Positions 5,571 through 32,297 of a stretch of 42,960 nt of DNA are shown here, piece by piece. The stretch is from an uncultured Ruminobacter sp. GTDB taxonomy: Bacteria > Pseudomonadota > Gammaproteobacteria > Enterobacterales > Succinivibrionaceae. The notes beneath the pieces were generated by a model. It was not told the origin of the DNA, searched no databases, and saw only the letters and a program-made list of their open reading frames with translations. Position 1 is the first letter of the stretch, and each line of letters starts with the position of its first letter. The translations under genes and the position numbers were made by a program. Where the stretch lies: contig CACWVT010000011.1 of assembly GCA_902764345.1 (NCBI GenBank), forward strand, positions 1 to 42,960, in the 5' to 3' direction.

Positions 5571-6368
5571 TCACCTGAGCGGTTCAGTCCACAGGTGTAT
5601 ATACCTTCCAAGATGGGCAAAATCCTCGCTGCGGCTGTACTCCAGCTCAAATGAAAGCAGATCGTCAAACTTGCTCACCTGTTCACTCTTGTCACGCATA
5701 TAGTCATGAATGATTCGGACACCGCTCATTCCCGATACCGTAAGTCCGCTTTCGGCAAGCCAGCGCCTTACCTCACTGATATATAAAGGAGTTATAGGTG
5801 TCAGCTTCTGACGGCGCTTTTTGACAAGTCCCTGTCTGATGTAATCAAAATTTCCGACCACCAGACTCTGAAACAGCAGAGCCGTACGGTTATAGAACAT
5901 AAGTGACAGCACACCGTTAACATCCAGCATTGACTTAAGAATACCGATCACCGGCTTCGGATCCACCAGCCACTCAAGAACGGCGTGACATATCACCAGA
6001 TCGAATTTTTCACCGGGAAGAATCTCGTTAAGCTTCTGAACCTCGCCTTTCATGAAGGTAATCCTTCCGCTGACGGAGTGTTCCTCAAGCTCCCTTTTGC
6101 CTAGATCCAGCATATCCTGAGAAATGTCAACAAGGGTAACGTCATGCCCCAGGGCTGCAAGCTTCATTGCCATGAATCCGAATCCCCCGCCGGCATCAAG
6201 CACCTTGAGCGGACGGGACATTTCAGGCTTTGCCAGAATCTCCTCCAGATCTCTCCAGACAACGGCTCCACGTATTTTTCCCTTACTGGTGCCGTATATC
6301 TGCTTCTTGAAAAATTCCGCTCTGTTGTCAAAGCTCTGATCATGTGGCGGAGCTTTCTGTTTTAACAT
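5571..6368 (-). CDS. cmoM: tRNA 5-carboxymethoxyuridine methyltransferase CmoM
   Basis: Class I SAM-dependent methyltransferase that methylates cmo5U to mcmo5U at wobble position 34 of certain tRNAs. The SAM motif VLDAGGGFGF is at residues 56-65. Family-specific features follow the enterobacterial orthologue closely: FFKKQIYGTSKG near the start, HAVLEWLVDP, LSLMFYN, VGNFDYI, GVRIIHDYMRDK and LGRYIHLW at the end. Length is 265 residues, as usual for CmoM. The frame continues 20 codons upstream, but the ATG at 6368 has an AGGGGA site and matches the family start region, so it is preferred. It is convergent with the DUF2057 gene and stands alone. Another tRNA-modification gene, truA, lies upstream on the same strand but is separated by 500 bases and a hairpin. 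Confidence 0.92.
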   Translation of the reverse strand: MLKQKAPPHDQSFDNRAEFFKKQIYGTSKGKIRGAVVWRDLEEILAKPEMSRPLKVLDAGGGFGFMAMKLAALGHDVTLVDISQDMLDLGKRELEEHSVSGRITFMKGEVQKLNEILPGEKFDLVICHAVLEWLVDPKPVIGILKSMLDVNGVLSLMFYNRTALLFQSLVVGNFDYIRQGLVKKRRQKLTPITPLYISEVRRWLAESGLTVSGMSGVRIIHDYMRDKSEQVSKFDDLLSFELEYSRSEDFAHLGRYIHLWTEPLR

Positions 6369-6542
6369 CCGAATTCCCCTAATTATCTTTTTCCATTGCT
6401 GTTTTTTCTGCGGCTGCCGGAAACGCAATCCGTTTTACGGGTTTGCGGCTTGCTCCGAATATCGGAAATGCTGTTCACCGCTTATTGACAGACATTAAAT
6501 TTTATCAATTCATGTTTTTGTAACGGATACTTACCTTCCGCT

Positions 6543-6570: not shown

Positions 6571-6876
6571 GAACTACGTCAAGGTTTTTTACTTATTCAC
6601 ACTTTTGGGGTATAAACTTGTGAATTAAAATAAATCAAGCGATTTTATTATTTTTCAGTCTAAAATAGCACCATACAGTCGGCTATTTTGACAGTTTTTT
6701 CATCACTTTTTAAAACCGCCTGTGTCTAACCTCAAAGCCTTTATGATGGGCATCTCCGTAATCATGCTTCATTCACCACGAAGTTTTACCAGTCATTCAT
6801 GAAACAGTCACTGCTGAAATCCGTCTGATTTTTCTAACGCCTCTTTCAGCTTAAATTGTGATTCTCAAGCCGTGAG

Positions 6877-17134: not shown

Positions 17135-17211
<77 letters not shown>

Positions 17212-17465: not shown

Positions 17466-17542
<77 letters not shown>

Positions 17543-23613: not shown

Positions 23614-24675
23614 CTAGTTATAATTACCTTTATTAGTCTTACTAAGTCTGCCTTTGTCTGCTTTCACCTGTCTGCGCCAAAGAAGAACACCAAGCATGAA
23701 TATGAAGAATGTAAGGGTGCAGGCAACGGTGTATTCATATCTTGTAACAGCACGTTCCCTTGAATCGGAAAGATTCTTGGCAACAAACATCTGAATGTCA
23801 GTTATTTCATGCTTGATTTTATGAAGTTTTTCTCTTGCAGAGGTCGTAACCTGAATAAGTTCGTTTGTATTACTTACCAGATACTCATGCCTGCCGACCA
23901 CACCGCTGTCATCAACACATGAATATTTGAAAAGAGTCATTACGGTACCAATTTCATTTTTGGCCTCTGGCATTTCCGAGTAAAGATTGTCAGTCCAGTT
24001 TTCGTATTCTTCAATAAAAACAGCTATCGTCGCCCTGGCTTTTTCAATTTCATCCGTATTGTTGGAACCCAAGGCCTCGAGAACCTTTCTTTCCACCAGT
24101 GACTGATATGTCAGAAGATTCAGCATCAGATTATCAACATAGTCATCGGACACCTTCAGCTTCATTTCCTGAAGCATCTGCCTGAATACCGGCTGCCAGA
24201 CAATAAAATCGGCCTTACTTCTGCCGGCTTCCTTAGCAAGCCGAAAATTGTAGCGTCTTTTTTCAGTCATCTGGTCCATGATGTTCAGGAAGTCTCGAGC
24301 CAGCATGGCAACTTCATTAATTTTGCTGTTGAGATAATCATCTGATGACTTACAGGAAAAACCGGAGAATCTGGCAAGACTGTATTCAAACTGCCGTCTC
24401 GAAGCATTCATCTCGACAAGACGTTTTTCGAACTCCTCTTCGGAGTTTGAAATGATTACGTCATGGTGATGTGCCGACAGTGCGAGCAGGCTGTTTTCAA
24501 CATCCTTTAACAGCAAAAGGAAACTGATTTCGGCAGTATTCGCATCTTTCTGAGATGATGATTCACTGCCGACTTCAGCAATACCGCATTGCGAGAACAG
24601 ATCGTCGGAATCTTTACTGCAACCGAATAAACCGAAACATATAACAAATCCAATAGTCAGACAAAATTTATTCAC
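23614..24675 (-). CDS. Helical sensor-like lipoprotein/membrane protein without signalling domain
   Basis: 353 residues from a GTG start at 24675 that has a near-ideal GAGGAGG site; the longer ATG start is rejected. An N-terminal hydrophobic segment ends in a lipobox-like LFGC (C19). About 290 extracytoplasmic residues follow, almost wholly charged amphipathic helix, then a C-terminal membrane helix (about 317-334) and a basic tail. Two membrane anchors around a long helical bundle is the plan of chemoreceptor four-helix or helical-bimodular sensor domains, but the HAMP and cytoplasmic signalling parts are absent. Cysteines recur in the loops (SQCGIAE, GFSCKSS, YSCVDD). It starts 50 bases after leuA-araC on the same strand, so co-transcription is likely. 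Function unknown; a ligand-sensing partner of the fusion is speculative. Confidence 0.68.
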   Translation of the reverse strand: MNKFCLTIGFVICFGLFGCSKDSDDLFSQCGIAEVGSESSSQKDANTAEISFLLLLKDVENSLLALSAHHHDVIISNSEEEFEKRLVEMNASRRQFEYSLARFSGFSCKSSDDYLNSKINEVAMLARDFLNIMDQMTEKRRYNFRLAKEAGRSKADFIVWQPVFRQMLQEMKLKVSDDYVDNLMLNLLTYQSLVERKVLEALGSNNTDEIEKARATIAVFIEEYENWTDNLYSEMPEAKNEIGTVMTLFKYSCVDDSGVVGRHEYLVSNTNELIQVTTSAREKLHKIKHEITDIQMFVAKNLSDSRERAVTRYEYTVACTLTFFIFMLGVLLWRRQVKADKGRLSKTNKGNYN

Positions 24676-24725
24676 GTTGATCCTCCTCAACAGATAATTA
24701 CCTCGGGACCACATTTATCAAGCTG

Positions 24726-26726
24726 CTACTTGATGGTCTGATTAAGATTTCTGTACTGCATCGGTGTCATTTCAAAGTATTTCTTAAATACTCTGATGAA
24801 ATGTTCCACGTTAGGGTATCCGATGGCATACGAGATATTTTCAACAGTCATGTTGCCGTTCTTTAAGAGAGTCTTGGCCTTCTTCAGACGGATGGAGGTC
24901 AAATGTTCTCCAAAGGTCTTTCCGGACTTATCCTTAATGTACTTGGAAATATAAGGAGCAGACAGCTGGAAATACTCAGCCATGTCTTCAAGGGTTATTT
25001 CCTGATACTTTGCCTGAATGTAATTAATCATGGCAATCAGTCTGTCATCCTTGGAAAGACTGTTGTTCTGAAGCTGTGGGAGCTTGTTTACGGCAACAAC
25101 CAGAGCATTGATTGACGCCTTGATGATATCTTCATCAAGACCTGCACCCCAGTAACTTACGCCGTTGCAGAGAATACCCACATATGCCATGGCTTTTGAA
25201 GAGGTGCCCTTGGAAATGGCATGCTCCTCGTAAACGGACAGCTCATAGCTGATGCCGAAATACTGTTTAATGGTATTGCTTACCGCATCAAGTCTGCCGT
25301 TACCGTTGGCATCAACCACTGTCTTCTTGTCTCCGCAACAGATAACGGTCTCAGCCATAATACCGTCATTCTGCTTGAAATGACTTTCGGAAATATGGAA
25401 GTTAGGGACATAGTTGATATAGTTTTCGGCAAAAATATCATACACAACCTGAGGAGAAAGCTCCTTGTGCTGTTCGTCAGACACCTGCTTAACGGCATAA
25501 CCGACCTCTTCCCTCATCTTTATCGGAATGTTCAGAGAGAAATTATGGGAAAGAATATATGCCACACCACCCTTTCCTGACTGACTGTTGATTCTGATTA
25601 CGTCAGAATCGTATGTTCTGCCGACATCAACAGGATCAATAGGAAGATAAGGTACGTCCCATATCTTCTTTTTCTGCGCTTCACGGCAGGCCATACCCTT
25701 GGCTATTGCATCCTGATGCGAACCGCTGAATGCGGTAAATACAAGATCACCGCCGTATGGCTGTCTTGGAGACACGTGCATGCCTGTCAGTTTTTCGTAA
25801 ACCTCTCTGATGTGAGGCATGTTTGAAAAATCGAGGCCGGGATCAATACCGTATGAGAACATGTTCATGGCAACTGTGATTATATCCACGTTACCTGTTC
25901 TTTCACCGTTACCGAAGAGAGTACCTTCAATTCTGTCGGCACCTGCAAGCAGACCGAGCTCGGCATCCGCCACACCGCATCCGCGGTCGTTGTGAGGGTG
26001 CAGGCTCAATACCACGTTTTCACGGTATTTCAGATTCTTTGACAGATATTCAATCTGGGTGGCAAACACGTGAGGCATTGCCGTTTCCACGGTAGCGGGA
26101 ACATTTATAATGGCTCTGCGATCCTCACTAGGCTGCCATACGTCAAGAACGGCATTGCAGACCTCCAGTGCGTAATCAACTTCAGTTCCGTGGAAACTTT
26201 CCGGGCTGTATTCAAAAGCGAAATCCCCTTCTGTTTCATCGGCAAGCTTCTTCAGCAGTTTGGCTCCGTCAATGGCCATCTGCTTAATCTGCTCCCTGTC
26301 CTTTTTGAACACCTGTTCACGCTGGGCGACAGAAGTTGAGTTATAGAGATGAACAACGGCATGCGGAGCCCCTCTCAAAGCCTCAAACGTCTTTCTGATA
26401 ATGTGTTCTCTTGCCTGAGTCAGAACCTGGATGGTCACGTCTTCAGGAATCATGTCTCTTTCTATCAGGGCTCTCAGGAAAAGAAACTCAGTTTCCGAAG
26501 CGGCAGGAAAGCCGACCTCAATTTCCTTAAAACCGATATCCACGAGCATCTTGAAGAATTCGAGCTTTTCATCGAGCCCCATCGGTTCGATCAGAGCCTG
26601 GTTACCGTCACGGAGATCAACAGAACACCAGACCGGAACCCTGTCAACATGATCCTTTTTTACCCAGTCGTAAGTTGCAACCGGAGGCATGAAATACTGA
26701 CGTGTGTACTTATCAAAATTCTTCAT
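24726..26726 (-). CDS. leuA: 2-isopropylmalate synthase (type 2) fused to an AraC-family DNA-binding domain
   Basis: 666 residues in one uninterrupted frame. Residues 1-555 are a full type-2 LeuA, which condenses 2-ketoisovalerate and acetyl-CoA at the start of leucine synthesis: SVDLRDGNQAL (35-45) with the catalytic Arg/Asp, metal-binding HPHND (243-247), GNGERTGN (272-279), and the C-terminal regulatory domain (about 430-550) that in this family binds leucine. A further 108 residues form an AraC/XylS domain: first helix-turn-helix LEDMAEYFQLSAPYISKYI (579-597), second TVENISYAIGYPNVEHFIR (627-645), then the family signature FKKYFEMTPMQYR. Both parts look intact. AraC domains are not part of LeuA architecture as I know it, so a leucine-responsive enzyme-regulator is inferred. 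AGGGAGAACATA precedes the ATG. Confidence 0.93.
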   Translation of the reverse strand: MKNFDKYTRQYFMPPVATYDWVKKDHVDRVPVWCSVDLRDGNQALIEPMGLDEKLEFFKMLVDIGFKEIEVGFPAASETEFLFLRALIERDMIPEDVTIQVLTQAREHIIRKTFEALRGAPHAVVHLYNSTSVAQREQVFKKDREQIKQMAIDGAKLLKKLADETEGDFAFEYSPESFHGTEVDYALEVCNAVLDVWQPSEDRRAIINVPATVETAMPHVFATQIEYLSKNLKYRENVVLSLHPHNDRGCGVADAELGLLAGADRIEGTLFGNGERTGNVDIITVAMNMFSYGIDPGLDFSNMPHIREVYEKLTGMHVSPRQPYGGDLVFTAFSGSHQDAIAKGMACREAQKKKIWDVPYLPIDPVDVGRTYDSDVIRINSQSGKGGVAYILSHNFSLNIPIKMREEVGYAVKQVSDEQHKELSPQVVYDIFAENYINYVPNFHISESHFKQNDGIMAETVICCGDKKTVVDANGNGRLDAVSNTIKQYFGISYELSVYEEHAISKGTSSKAMAYVGILCNGVSYWGAGLDEDIIKASINALVVAVNKLPQLQNNSLSKDDRLIAMINYIQAKYQEITLEDMAEYFQLSAPYISKYIKDKSGKTFGEHLTSIRLKKAKTLLKNGNMTVENISYAIGYPNVEHFIRVFKKYFEMTPMQYRNLNQTIK

Positions 26727-26870
26727 TATGTTCTCCCTGTCATGACTGACGGAAATCCGTTTTACTTCCGCTTCAATGACCTGTTTAAATAATTGGTATG
26801 GATAACAGCATGATTCTCGATGATAAACTGCAGAGATAAATCCGAACTCAATTCATCATTAAAATAAATC

Positions 26871-26885
26871 AATATATTTGACTTA
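26871..26885 (+). repeat. Direct repeat 1 in the leuA-malE intergenic region
   Basis: AATATATTTGACTTA; 13 of 15 bases match repeat 2, which begins 54 bases further on in the same orientation. Candidate binding site for an AraC-type regulator, possibly the LeuA fusion itself. Confidence 0.45.
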
Positions 26886-26915
26886 ATTTTATCACTAAAA
26901 AAACAGTTTACAATG

Positions 26916-26921
26916 ATTATA
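26916..26921 (-). promoter_or_regulatory. Candidate -10 box of leuA-araC
   Basis: Perfect TATAAT on the minus strand with no recognisable -35; direct repeat 2 occupies the -35 region instead, the layout of an activator-dependent promoter. The resulting leader would be about 185 bases. No leucine-rich leader peptide is seen. Confidence 0.4.
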
Positions 26922-26924
26922 TTT

Positions 26925-26939
26925 AATCTATTTGACTGA
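26925..26939 (+). repeat. Direct repeat 2 in the leuA-malE intergenic region
   Basis: AATCTATTTGACTGA, matching repeat 1 at 13 of 15 positions. It lies immediately upstream of the minus-strand TATAAT. The remainder of the 625-base region (26727-27351) is AT-rich, and I see no gene in it. Confidence 0.45.
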
Positions 26940-27351
26940 TATTTATTAATTTTTTTATTTATTAACCGGATTTTTACCATATTTCATGTCATGTAACACT
27001 TACCGGAAAGCACCATTTCAGTGTTTTAGGTGTATTCCACCGGATAATTTACCCTGTTTTACAGGTTATCTATCTTTCATCCATCCCAGAAAAGAAAATA
27101 AGAAGTATCGGAAAAATCATACGGATTTTCCGGAAAAAATTTCGGATAAAAACTGCCGCACTTTCATTAAAAGCAGCAGCAAAACAACTTCCTGAAGCAT
27201 GGCATATCATTATCTAATACTTAAATCACGGATCTTTTTCGTATAAAAAGCTAATATATGATTAAAAGTGTGCTATATTTTCACAAAAATAATAAAAACG
27301 GAAATCAATAAGGCACAAAAGCAGAATAATCTATGACATTGGGGACACCGC

Positions 27352-32115: not shown

Positions 32116-32191
32116 TCCTCCTTAGTTCAGTCGGTAGAACGGCGGACTGTTAATCCGTATGTCGCTGGTTCAAGTCCAGCAGGAGGAGCCA
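32116..32191 (+). tRNA. tRNA-Asn (anticodon GTT), copy 1
   Basis: 76 bases, acceptor stem TCCTCCT/AGGAGGA, anticodon loop CTGTTAA, T-arm CTGGTTCAAGTCCAG, encoded CCA. Identical to copy 2. Confidence 0.97.
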
Positions 32192-32221: not shown

Positions 32222-32297
32222 TCCTCCTTAGTTCAGTCGGTAGAACGGCGGACTGTTAATCCGTATGTCGCTGGTTCAAGTCCAGCAGGAGGAGCCA
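32222..32297 (+). tRNA. tRNA-Asn (anticodon GTT), copy 2
   Basis: Identical to copy 1 and 30 bases after it; the flanks (AAGT before, TTAAAT after) also match, so the duplicated unit is slightly larger than the gene. Both are presumably made from one precursor. Confidence 0.97.

Follow-up and report, generated by a model that had tools for sequence, protein, structure and literature searches.

An isopropylmalate synthase with an AraC-type DNA-binding tail that probably controls its own gene

Enzymes that carry a DNA-binding domain in the same chain include the proline dehydrogenase PutA, in which this domain is a ribbon-helix-helix, and BirA and NadR, which control biosynthesis genes. In Escherichia coli, BirA, NadR, PepA, PutA and PyrH are named as trigger enzymes having a DNA-binding domain, and PutA is described as binding only the putA-putP spacer (PMC8249747). 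In the isopropylmalate synthase (IPMS, LeuA) of Mycobacterium tuberculosis, leucine is reported to bind pockets at the dimer interface of the regulatory domain, closing a loop (PMC11057210). The subject here is an IPMS fused to an AraC-type tail, encoded in a 42,960-nucleotide stretch of DNA from an uncultured Ruminobacter sp. of the Succinivibrionaceae (contig CACWVT010000011.1 of assembly GCA_902764345.1), the whole of which is called the window. Domain matches show the product of this leuA-araC gene to combine an apparently intact IPMS, leucine-binding dimer domain and AraC DNA-binding domain, and it probably regulates its own gene. DNA binding, regulatory sign and leucine response are what we infer from sequence comparison, and the sites at the promoter are the strongest evidence for the role as a regulator.

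The fusion resembles PutA in that enzyme and DNA-binding domain lie in one chain and the apparent target is the promoter region of its own gene; unlike the fusion, PutA has a catabolic role and acts as a repressor in the absence of its substrate (PMC8249747). PutA also controls putP, whereas the fusion is the enzyme of a committed, feedback-inhibited biosynthetic step and has an AraC-type domain. The enzymes and DNA-binding domains of BirA and NadR likewise differ from those of the fusion. These two E. coli proteins share with it the single chain of enzyme and DNA-binding domain but are called multi-target there, on unpublished data (PMC8249747), while the fusion apparently serves its own gene. 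M. tuberculosis LeuA (1SR9, 3FIG) and other long-form IPMS have the domain order of residues 1-550 of the fusion; the M. tuberculosis enzyme has no DNA-binding tail, and its known control is inhibition by leucine. Closest to the enzyme part are the tail-less leuA genes of Lachnospiraceae (64-71% identical, 39 fetched), which mostly have a T-box leader and, one marginal case excepted, no operator. AraC/XylS regulators have the same C-terminal double helix-turn-helix (HTH) as the fusion and sense with a dedicated ligand-binding domain, whereas the sensor of the fusion would be the biosynthetic enzyme itself.

The gene and its parts are as follows.

24726-26726, minus strand: leuA-araC fusion gene, 666 aa (open reading frame, Pfam and NCBIfam; domain order the same and length similar in relatives)
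25803-26633, minus strand: catalytic TIM-barrel domain, HMGL-like, with LRDG, HPHND and GNGERTGN, residues 32-308 (PF00682, 1.2e-69)
25551-25748, minus strand: post-catalytic IPMS_D2 domain, residues 327-392 (PF22615, 5.6e-34)
25080-25457, minus strand: LeuA_dimer allosteric domain, which binds leucine in known IPMS, residues 424-549 (PF08502, 1.4e-21)
25014-25079, minus strand: variable linker, residues 550-571 (lowest conservation of six stretches measured, mean 0.52 in fused proteins)
24747-25013, minus strand: AraC-type double HTH, residues 572-660 (PF12833, 7.5e-20, and PF00165, 1.8e-11; solved AraC-domain relatives)

All five Pfam matches exceed the curated cut-offs, those of the tail being HTH_18 (PF12833) over residues 582-660 and HTH_AraC (PF00165) over residues 622-660. 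In NCBIfam, residues 5-548 are 2-isopropylmalate synthase (NF002991, 796 bits), and by sequence and structure residues 1-550 form a long-form enzyme whose nearest solved relative is M. tuberculosis LeuA. A first-pass annotation, made from the letters alone, had read LeuA and AraC domains in a single frame, and the Pfam and NCBIfam searches of both parts of the 666-aa minus-strand frame agree with it. The motifs LRDG, HPHND and GNGERTGN that it named are all present; its AraC signature, given as FKKYF-x-TP-x-x-YR, is there as FKKYF-EM-TP-MQ-YR, with two residues rather than one ahead of TP. The AraC part starts about 20-30 residues past the LeuA_dimer domain. An AlphaFold2 model built from 70 fused sequences has a mean pLDDT of 84.3, with block means of 80-90 over residues 561-660, and contains in the tail seven helices (residues 561-665), which we liken to those of MarA; the solved relatives of the tail include MarA. 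A structure search found LeuA and related enzymes in the 50 matches listed.

Both halves of the protein are conserved. Among 95 fused rows the positions of the three catalytic motifs are 100% conserved, except P244 (98%), and in 70 fused rows residues G475, N476, G477, R478, Y499, E501 and A512 of the LeuA_dimer domain are invariant. Mean conservation in fused rows is 0.74 for the HTH part, the same as for the allosteric domain. The ratio of nonsynonymous to synonymous substitution rates (dN/dS) of the tail (residues 572-660) is 0.014 between the window and locus L034 and 0.006 between the window and L035, with dS saturated in the latter; these were the two usable pairs, dS against L036 not being computable. 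Enzyme domains range over 0-0.031 (L034) and 0.017-0.033 (L035), and the tail falls within or below these values. The AraC tail is under purifying selection.

The same 666-aa protein occurs in Ruminobacter sp. RGIG8895 (98%) and Ruminobacter amylophilus DSM 1361 (95%), the nearest named relatives. The full fusion was found in 9 of 59 genomes, its own included, all in the Succinivibrionaceae, where they are 9 of 35; it was not seen in 24 other genomes of the order, in which each match listed either stops short of the tail or is a class I LeuA or a free-standing AraC protein. In the Roseburia faecis family, 270 of the 299 genomes searched have a long IPMS match, which reaches the tail in at least 68, and a class-wide survey of 391 genomes with a stricter cut-off gave 134 with a match, at least 13 of them reaching the tail. 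The fusion is a widespread Lachnospiraceae architecture, and its carriers there include isolates. Such a survey of LeuA homologues for the same tail, with 9 of 35 genomes in its own family and at least 68 of 299 in that of Roseburia, removes the worry of the first-pass annotation that the gene might be an assembly join. At two loci of relatives, L288 (G131) and L289 (G148), a stop stands behind the enzyme part and the AraC part is open in another frame just downstream, with a run of eight A at the junction in L289; the break could be a real gene split, slippage making both forms, or an assembly error.

The upstream region of the fused genes shares a block, ATCA-N7-TGATTAA-N-TTTAATCATT, in which the ATCA-N7-TGAT repeats are spaced by 11 bp, about one helical turn. 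In the window the following elements precede the gene.

26912-26940, minus strand: operator-like site 1, ATCAGTCAAATAGATTAAATATAATCATT (weight-matrix score 40.7, where shuffles reach 14.4 at most; L034, whose site is identical, belonged to the training set)
26886-26913, minus strand: predicted promoter, with a weak TTGTAA (26913-26908), a 16-nt spacer and an extended -10 TGA-TAAAAT whose hexamer is 26891-26886 (from a consensus scan in which promoter-like sites are no commoner than in shuffles)
26859-26882, minus strand: operator-like site 2, GTCAAATATATTGATTTATTTTAA (a single mismatch to the 24-mer core; its distance from site 1, 58 bp, is the one most often seen in relatives)

The TTGTAA overlaps site 1 by two bases, and site 2 overlaps the predicted transcription start. 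The site 1 block is at least 95% identical to that of the window in three other Ruminobacter-group genomes, and site 2 is 96-100% identical across this group. Comparison of the window with L036 gives identities of 95% and 96% for the two site blocks, 66% for the promoter between them, 20% for the leader and 54% for the upstream part, which is the footprint of selection in the new host. The leader itself (26727-26860, minus strand), about 150 nt in Ruminobacter, has a possible hairpin, GCGGAAGT ... ACGGATTTCCG, ahead of the start codon, which is similar in L034 and L035 and missing in L036.

Across relatives the operator follows the tail. It was scored with a 37-bp weight matrix, whose 23 training loci came from the first survey, against a null of 3040 shuffled upstream regions (first-order Markov; 99th percentile 4.1, maximum 14.4). 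Among fused genes of the Roseburia family, 53 of 68 score above 4.1 and 37 of 68 above 14.4 (49 and 33 of 64 once four repeats of training genomes are removed). For the tail-less comparison, the 40 top-scoring rows that stop short of the tail were taken from the search of that family; two of them, L181 and L212, exceed 4.1, and none of a further 10 tail-less genes does. In L181 the tail frame is intact directly behind a stop in the linker, as it is in the split gene L179, which has kept the operator; L179 was set apart before this count, in which L181 figures as tail-less, and both were treated as split in the tree set. L151, with too short an upstream region, and L284, a duplicate of L167, were left out. 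In the Succinivibrionaceae 8 of 9 fused loci are above 4.1, the Ruminobacter loci being in or nearly identical to the training set, and L011 passes only just (4.1), through site 2. The class-wide search added seven fused loci, six of them above 4.1. In the tree set, 77 of 94 fused genes lie above the lower threshold and 61 above the higher (54 and 38 of 71 without the 23 training loci), against one marginal case and none among 49 tail-less genes.

Some of the comparisons are made within one genome or one clade. Five genomes (G442, G178, G092, G578 and G287) hold an unfused paralogue beside the fused copy; these paralogues are about 49-52% identical to the query and have neither the operator (0 of 5) nor a T-box motif upstream, while the fused copies score 41.0, 44.7, 2.5, 23.5 and 41.6, respectively, G092 falling below the threshold. 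Eight tail-less genes within or bordering the fused clade also have no operator (0 of 8). A comparison of HTH residues with two operator variants was set aside: the differences are not clearly in the recognition helices, the variant groups are also clades, and no conclusion was drawn.

The position of the block relative to the promoter is just as regular. An extended -10, TGNTANNNT, lies downstream of site 1 in 69 of the 79 fused or split rows with site 1 above threshold (shuffles: mean 1.7, maximum 7), and its hexamer lies exactly 21 nt after site 1 in 58 rows and 20 nt in 8. With the hexamer at -12, site 1 falls at about -62 to -34; AraC-type activators, too, have their site at -35. A second copy of the operator, with up to three mismatches, is present in 34 of 73 rows with enough sequence (shuffles: mean 2.0, maximum 7). 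Measured from the start of the first copy, it is 58-59 bp downstream in 21 rows, where it covers the expected transcription start, and 72-74 bp downstream in 8. The operator-like block of the fused genes and its fixed spacing to an extended -10 promoter are new in this analysis.

The operator looks dedicated to leuA-araC itself, with weak extra sites possible. With two mismatches allowed, the full site 1 pattern occurs in 12 of 13 fused genomes, nine of which have it just once. The core pattern, allowing one mismatch, gave 46 matches across 34 of 40 fused genomes; match positions were compared by hand with those of the fusion genes, which placed 32 matches, spread over 31 genomes, at the gene's own promoter. 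All 22 perfect matches are there, partly by construction as the pattern was derived from such promoters, and the informative part of the scan is the scarcity of strong sites elsewhere. The remaining 14 matches (10 within open reading frames of at least 90 aa, 4 outside) compare with 7 for a reversed control. Forty genomes with a tail-less leuA gave five matches in four genomes, none perfect, and the control gave five as well. In the Ruminobacter genome itself, the 24-mer with two mismatches has 47 matches against 21 for the reversed pattern, an excess that is unexplained, and in the window there are five short-pattern matches where 0.7 would be expected, of which the fusion promoter accounts for three. 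Two partial matches lie upstream of a methyltransferase-like gene (5571-6428), at 6495-6518 (minus strand, two mismatches) and 6625-6648 (minus strand, one mismatch).

Nothing in these searches outlined a leucine regulon, which was dropped as a candidate: no leucine gene was recognised near the 14 off-promoter matches, their neighbours being judged by eye with no family search. The operator was not found at the leuA-leuB-leuC-leuD operon of the same genome nor at ten leuC loci of the family, among which L274 (4.7) and L271 (2.9) have marginal scores. Gene neighbourhood was likewise rejected as a clue to targets, since neighbours vary between groups and the conserved clusters show no leucine gene by eye.

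In the tree of the enzyme part (146 rows; L062, L112, L114, L116, L117, L005, L006, L007 and L180 were dropped ahead of alignment and tree as partial or duplicate), the nine Succinivibrionaceae rows form one group (support 84, not starred), nested within the Lachnospiraceae fusions beneath starred branches of 99 and 96. This position of the Ruminobacter gene indicates a transfer from Firmicutes to Gammaproteobacteria, and in the best explanation the leuA-araC gene moved from Lachnospiraceae to Succinivibrionaceae together with its operator, and in some recipient genomes no other leuA was found. Presence of the tail requires at least eight changes on the tree, a count that cannot separate gain from loss; the simplest reading is one gain and several losses.

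Besides the fusion, Ruminobacter has a class I LeuA within a leuA-leuB-leuC-leuD operon (leuB and leuD named by eye). Above the cut-off, class I LeuA was not found in five of the nine fused Succinivibrionaceae (G007, G011, G021, G027 and G030), four of which have a leuC-type gene. In G019, which is of the same genus as G007, G027 and G030 and has no fusion, a class I leuA precedes leuB (by eye), whereas in G027 leuB, leuC and leuD, also named by eye, have no leuA in the 380 bases upstream. The fused enzyme therefore seems to have replaced the resident class I LeuA in some Succinivibrionaceae. In Lachnospiraceae, a test of 18 fused genomes gave no class I LeuA above the cut-off.

In Lachnospiraceae, control through the fusion would largely stand in for the T-box leader of tail-less leuA. 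The T-box core motif precedes the gene in 39 of 49 tail-less rows versus 11 of 96 fused or split rows. Of 20 fused loci put to Rfam, the cut-off is reached by 8 of 9 with the motif and 0 of 11 without; for 20 tail-less or split loci the corresponding figures are 11 of 13 and 2 of 7, 13 in all. The tail-less genes in or bordering the fused clade have the motif in seven of eight cases; four of these eight were put to Rfam (L182, L184, L186 and L191) and only L186 reaches the cut-off, which leaves L182 and L184 as T-boxes by motif alone. Four displayed T-box alignments, two fused and two tail-less, contain GAA-CUC-GCC, where CUC is a leucine codon and presumably, from its place, the specifier. 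Seven fused genes (L038, L121, L122, L144, L146, L155 and L166) have the operator about 390-490 bp upstream with a T-box in between, L038 by motif only, and seem to be under double control, by an operator at a far promoter and a leader T-box. The window has no T-box: Rfam over its whole length gives four tRNAs only, and no T-box motif is present upstream of the fusion gene.

Two features of the window stand apart from this system. A lipoprotein-like open reading frame of 366 aa without Pfam match (23614-24714, minus strand) begins 11 bases past the fusion gene and may be cotranscribed with it; L034 has a similar neighbour, and none clustering with it was found in L035 or L036. The tRNA genes form two pairs on the plus strand, 17135-17208 with 17466-17539 and 32116-32188 with 32222-32294, which have equal scores within each pair and may be duplicates.

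The reading to which we incline, by a slight lean, is that a committed, feedback-inhibited enzyme has turned into a leucine-responsive transcription factor whose target is, in essence, its own promoter and nothing else; that it replaced the T-box leader in much of the Lachnospiraceae; and that gene and operator together, forming a self-contained unit, reached a distant phylum, displacing the resident leuA in several genomes. Its switch would be AraC-like, activating from site 1 and repressing from site 2, and the allosteric change behind enzyme inhibition would drive it. The narrower explanation, an enzyme that regulates its own gene, is the more probable. In it, the dimer of the enzyme would bring both AraC domains to the operator. 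Site 1, ending near -34 at a weak -35, is where an AraC-type activator would contact RNA polymerase; at low leucine, free enzyme would occupy this site and activate its own gene, and protein on site 2, at the transcription start, would block transcription. Leucine in the dimer domain would bring about the change that inhibits the enzyme, which would also move the AraC domains away from site 1, or to site 2, and the gene would be turned off. A single sensor would thus serve enzyme inhibition and gene repression. Leucine sensing is plausible in view of the intact LeuA_dimer domain and the known allostery of IPMS. The trigger-enzyme-like regulator proposed by the first-pass annotation keeps its duality of enzyme and transcription regulator, which is well supported by the conserved tail and the operator-like block that follows it; the apparent target, however, is the gene itself and not a leucine regulon.

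Several observations weigh against such autoregulation or narrow it. No site 1 above threshold is present in 17 of the 94 fused rows, and L011 and L012 of the window's own family keep site 2 only. Site 2 is found in under half of the rows, so a two-site switch is not general. The independent contrasts amount to four pairs on starred branches (3.2 on average going the expected way), none opposed, and the sign test is not significant. Six of the 40 fused genomes have no core match at all, the perfect matches at own promoters are partly built into the pattern, and 14 off-promoter matches against 7 in the control make weak further targets possible. The T-box motif persists in 11 fused or split genes. 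With a pTM of 0.66, the relative placement of domains in the AlphaFold2 model is not fixed.

How the sites act and what signal they obey can be read in other ways. A simple autorepressor, with leucine as co-repressor, site 1 blocking the -35 region, site 2 blocking the start and no activation, is a serious possibility, though a less than even one: site 1 does touch the -35 region and site 2 the transcription start, and end-product repression is the usual logic for a biosynthetic gene. The nearly fixed 20-21 nt from site 1 to the extended -10 and the weak -35 of the window are, however, the geometry of an activator, and a blocking site needs no such exactness; most members of the AraC family, moreover, are activators. 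For this near-fixed spacing and weak -35, activation from site 1 appears rather more credible than plain repression. A signal other than leucine is unlikely, namely that DNA binding competes with catalysis or tracks 2-ketoisovalerate or acetyl-CoA, in the manner of PutA with proline. The catalytic residues of the fusion are intact, and PutA is described as answering to its substrate (PMC8249747), yet the AraC part sits directly behind the LeuA_dimer domain, the one reported to bind leucine in M. tuberculosis IPMS (PMC11057210).

Doubts about the link between tail and operator, or about the fusion itself, carry much less weight. It is improbable that another AraC-family protein reads the operator and that the LeuA tail serves some other purpose or none: these genomes do contain further AraC proteins and co-occurrence is not binding, but the operator is absent from tail-less genes and from unfused paralogues of the same genome, occurs mainly at leuA-araC, and was kept in another phylum after transfer, with the tail under strong purifying selection. 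That the gene is an assembly artefact or a dead fusion has a negligible chance; a linker frameshift in two relatives indicates that breaks can arise there, whereas many independent assemblies, some of them from isolates, contain an unbroken fusion, and the dN/dS of the tail is far below 1.

No published LeuA with an AraC tail was found in a literature search that left most subscription journals outside its reach, in line with the first-pass annotation, which knew of no LeuA with this architecture. The leuA-araC enzyme, probably autoregulatory, is real, widespread and, as far as searched, undescribed. Normally an enzyme is feedback-inhibited through one sensor and its gene repressed through another, in two separate systems; if the reading favoured here is true, one protein with one leucine site does both. 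The family also offers natural experiments, in the apparent losses of the tail without an operator, in genomes that have both fused and unfused copies, and in genes that combine operator and T-box. The interphylum transfer, in which the control unit travelled with the gene, is a further one.

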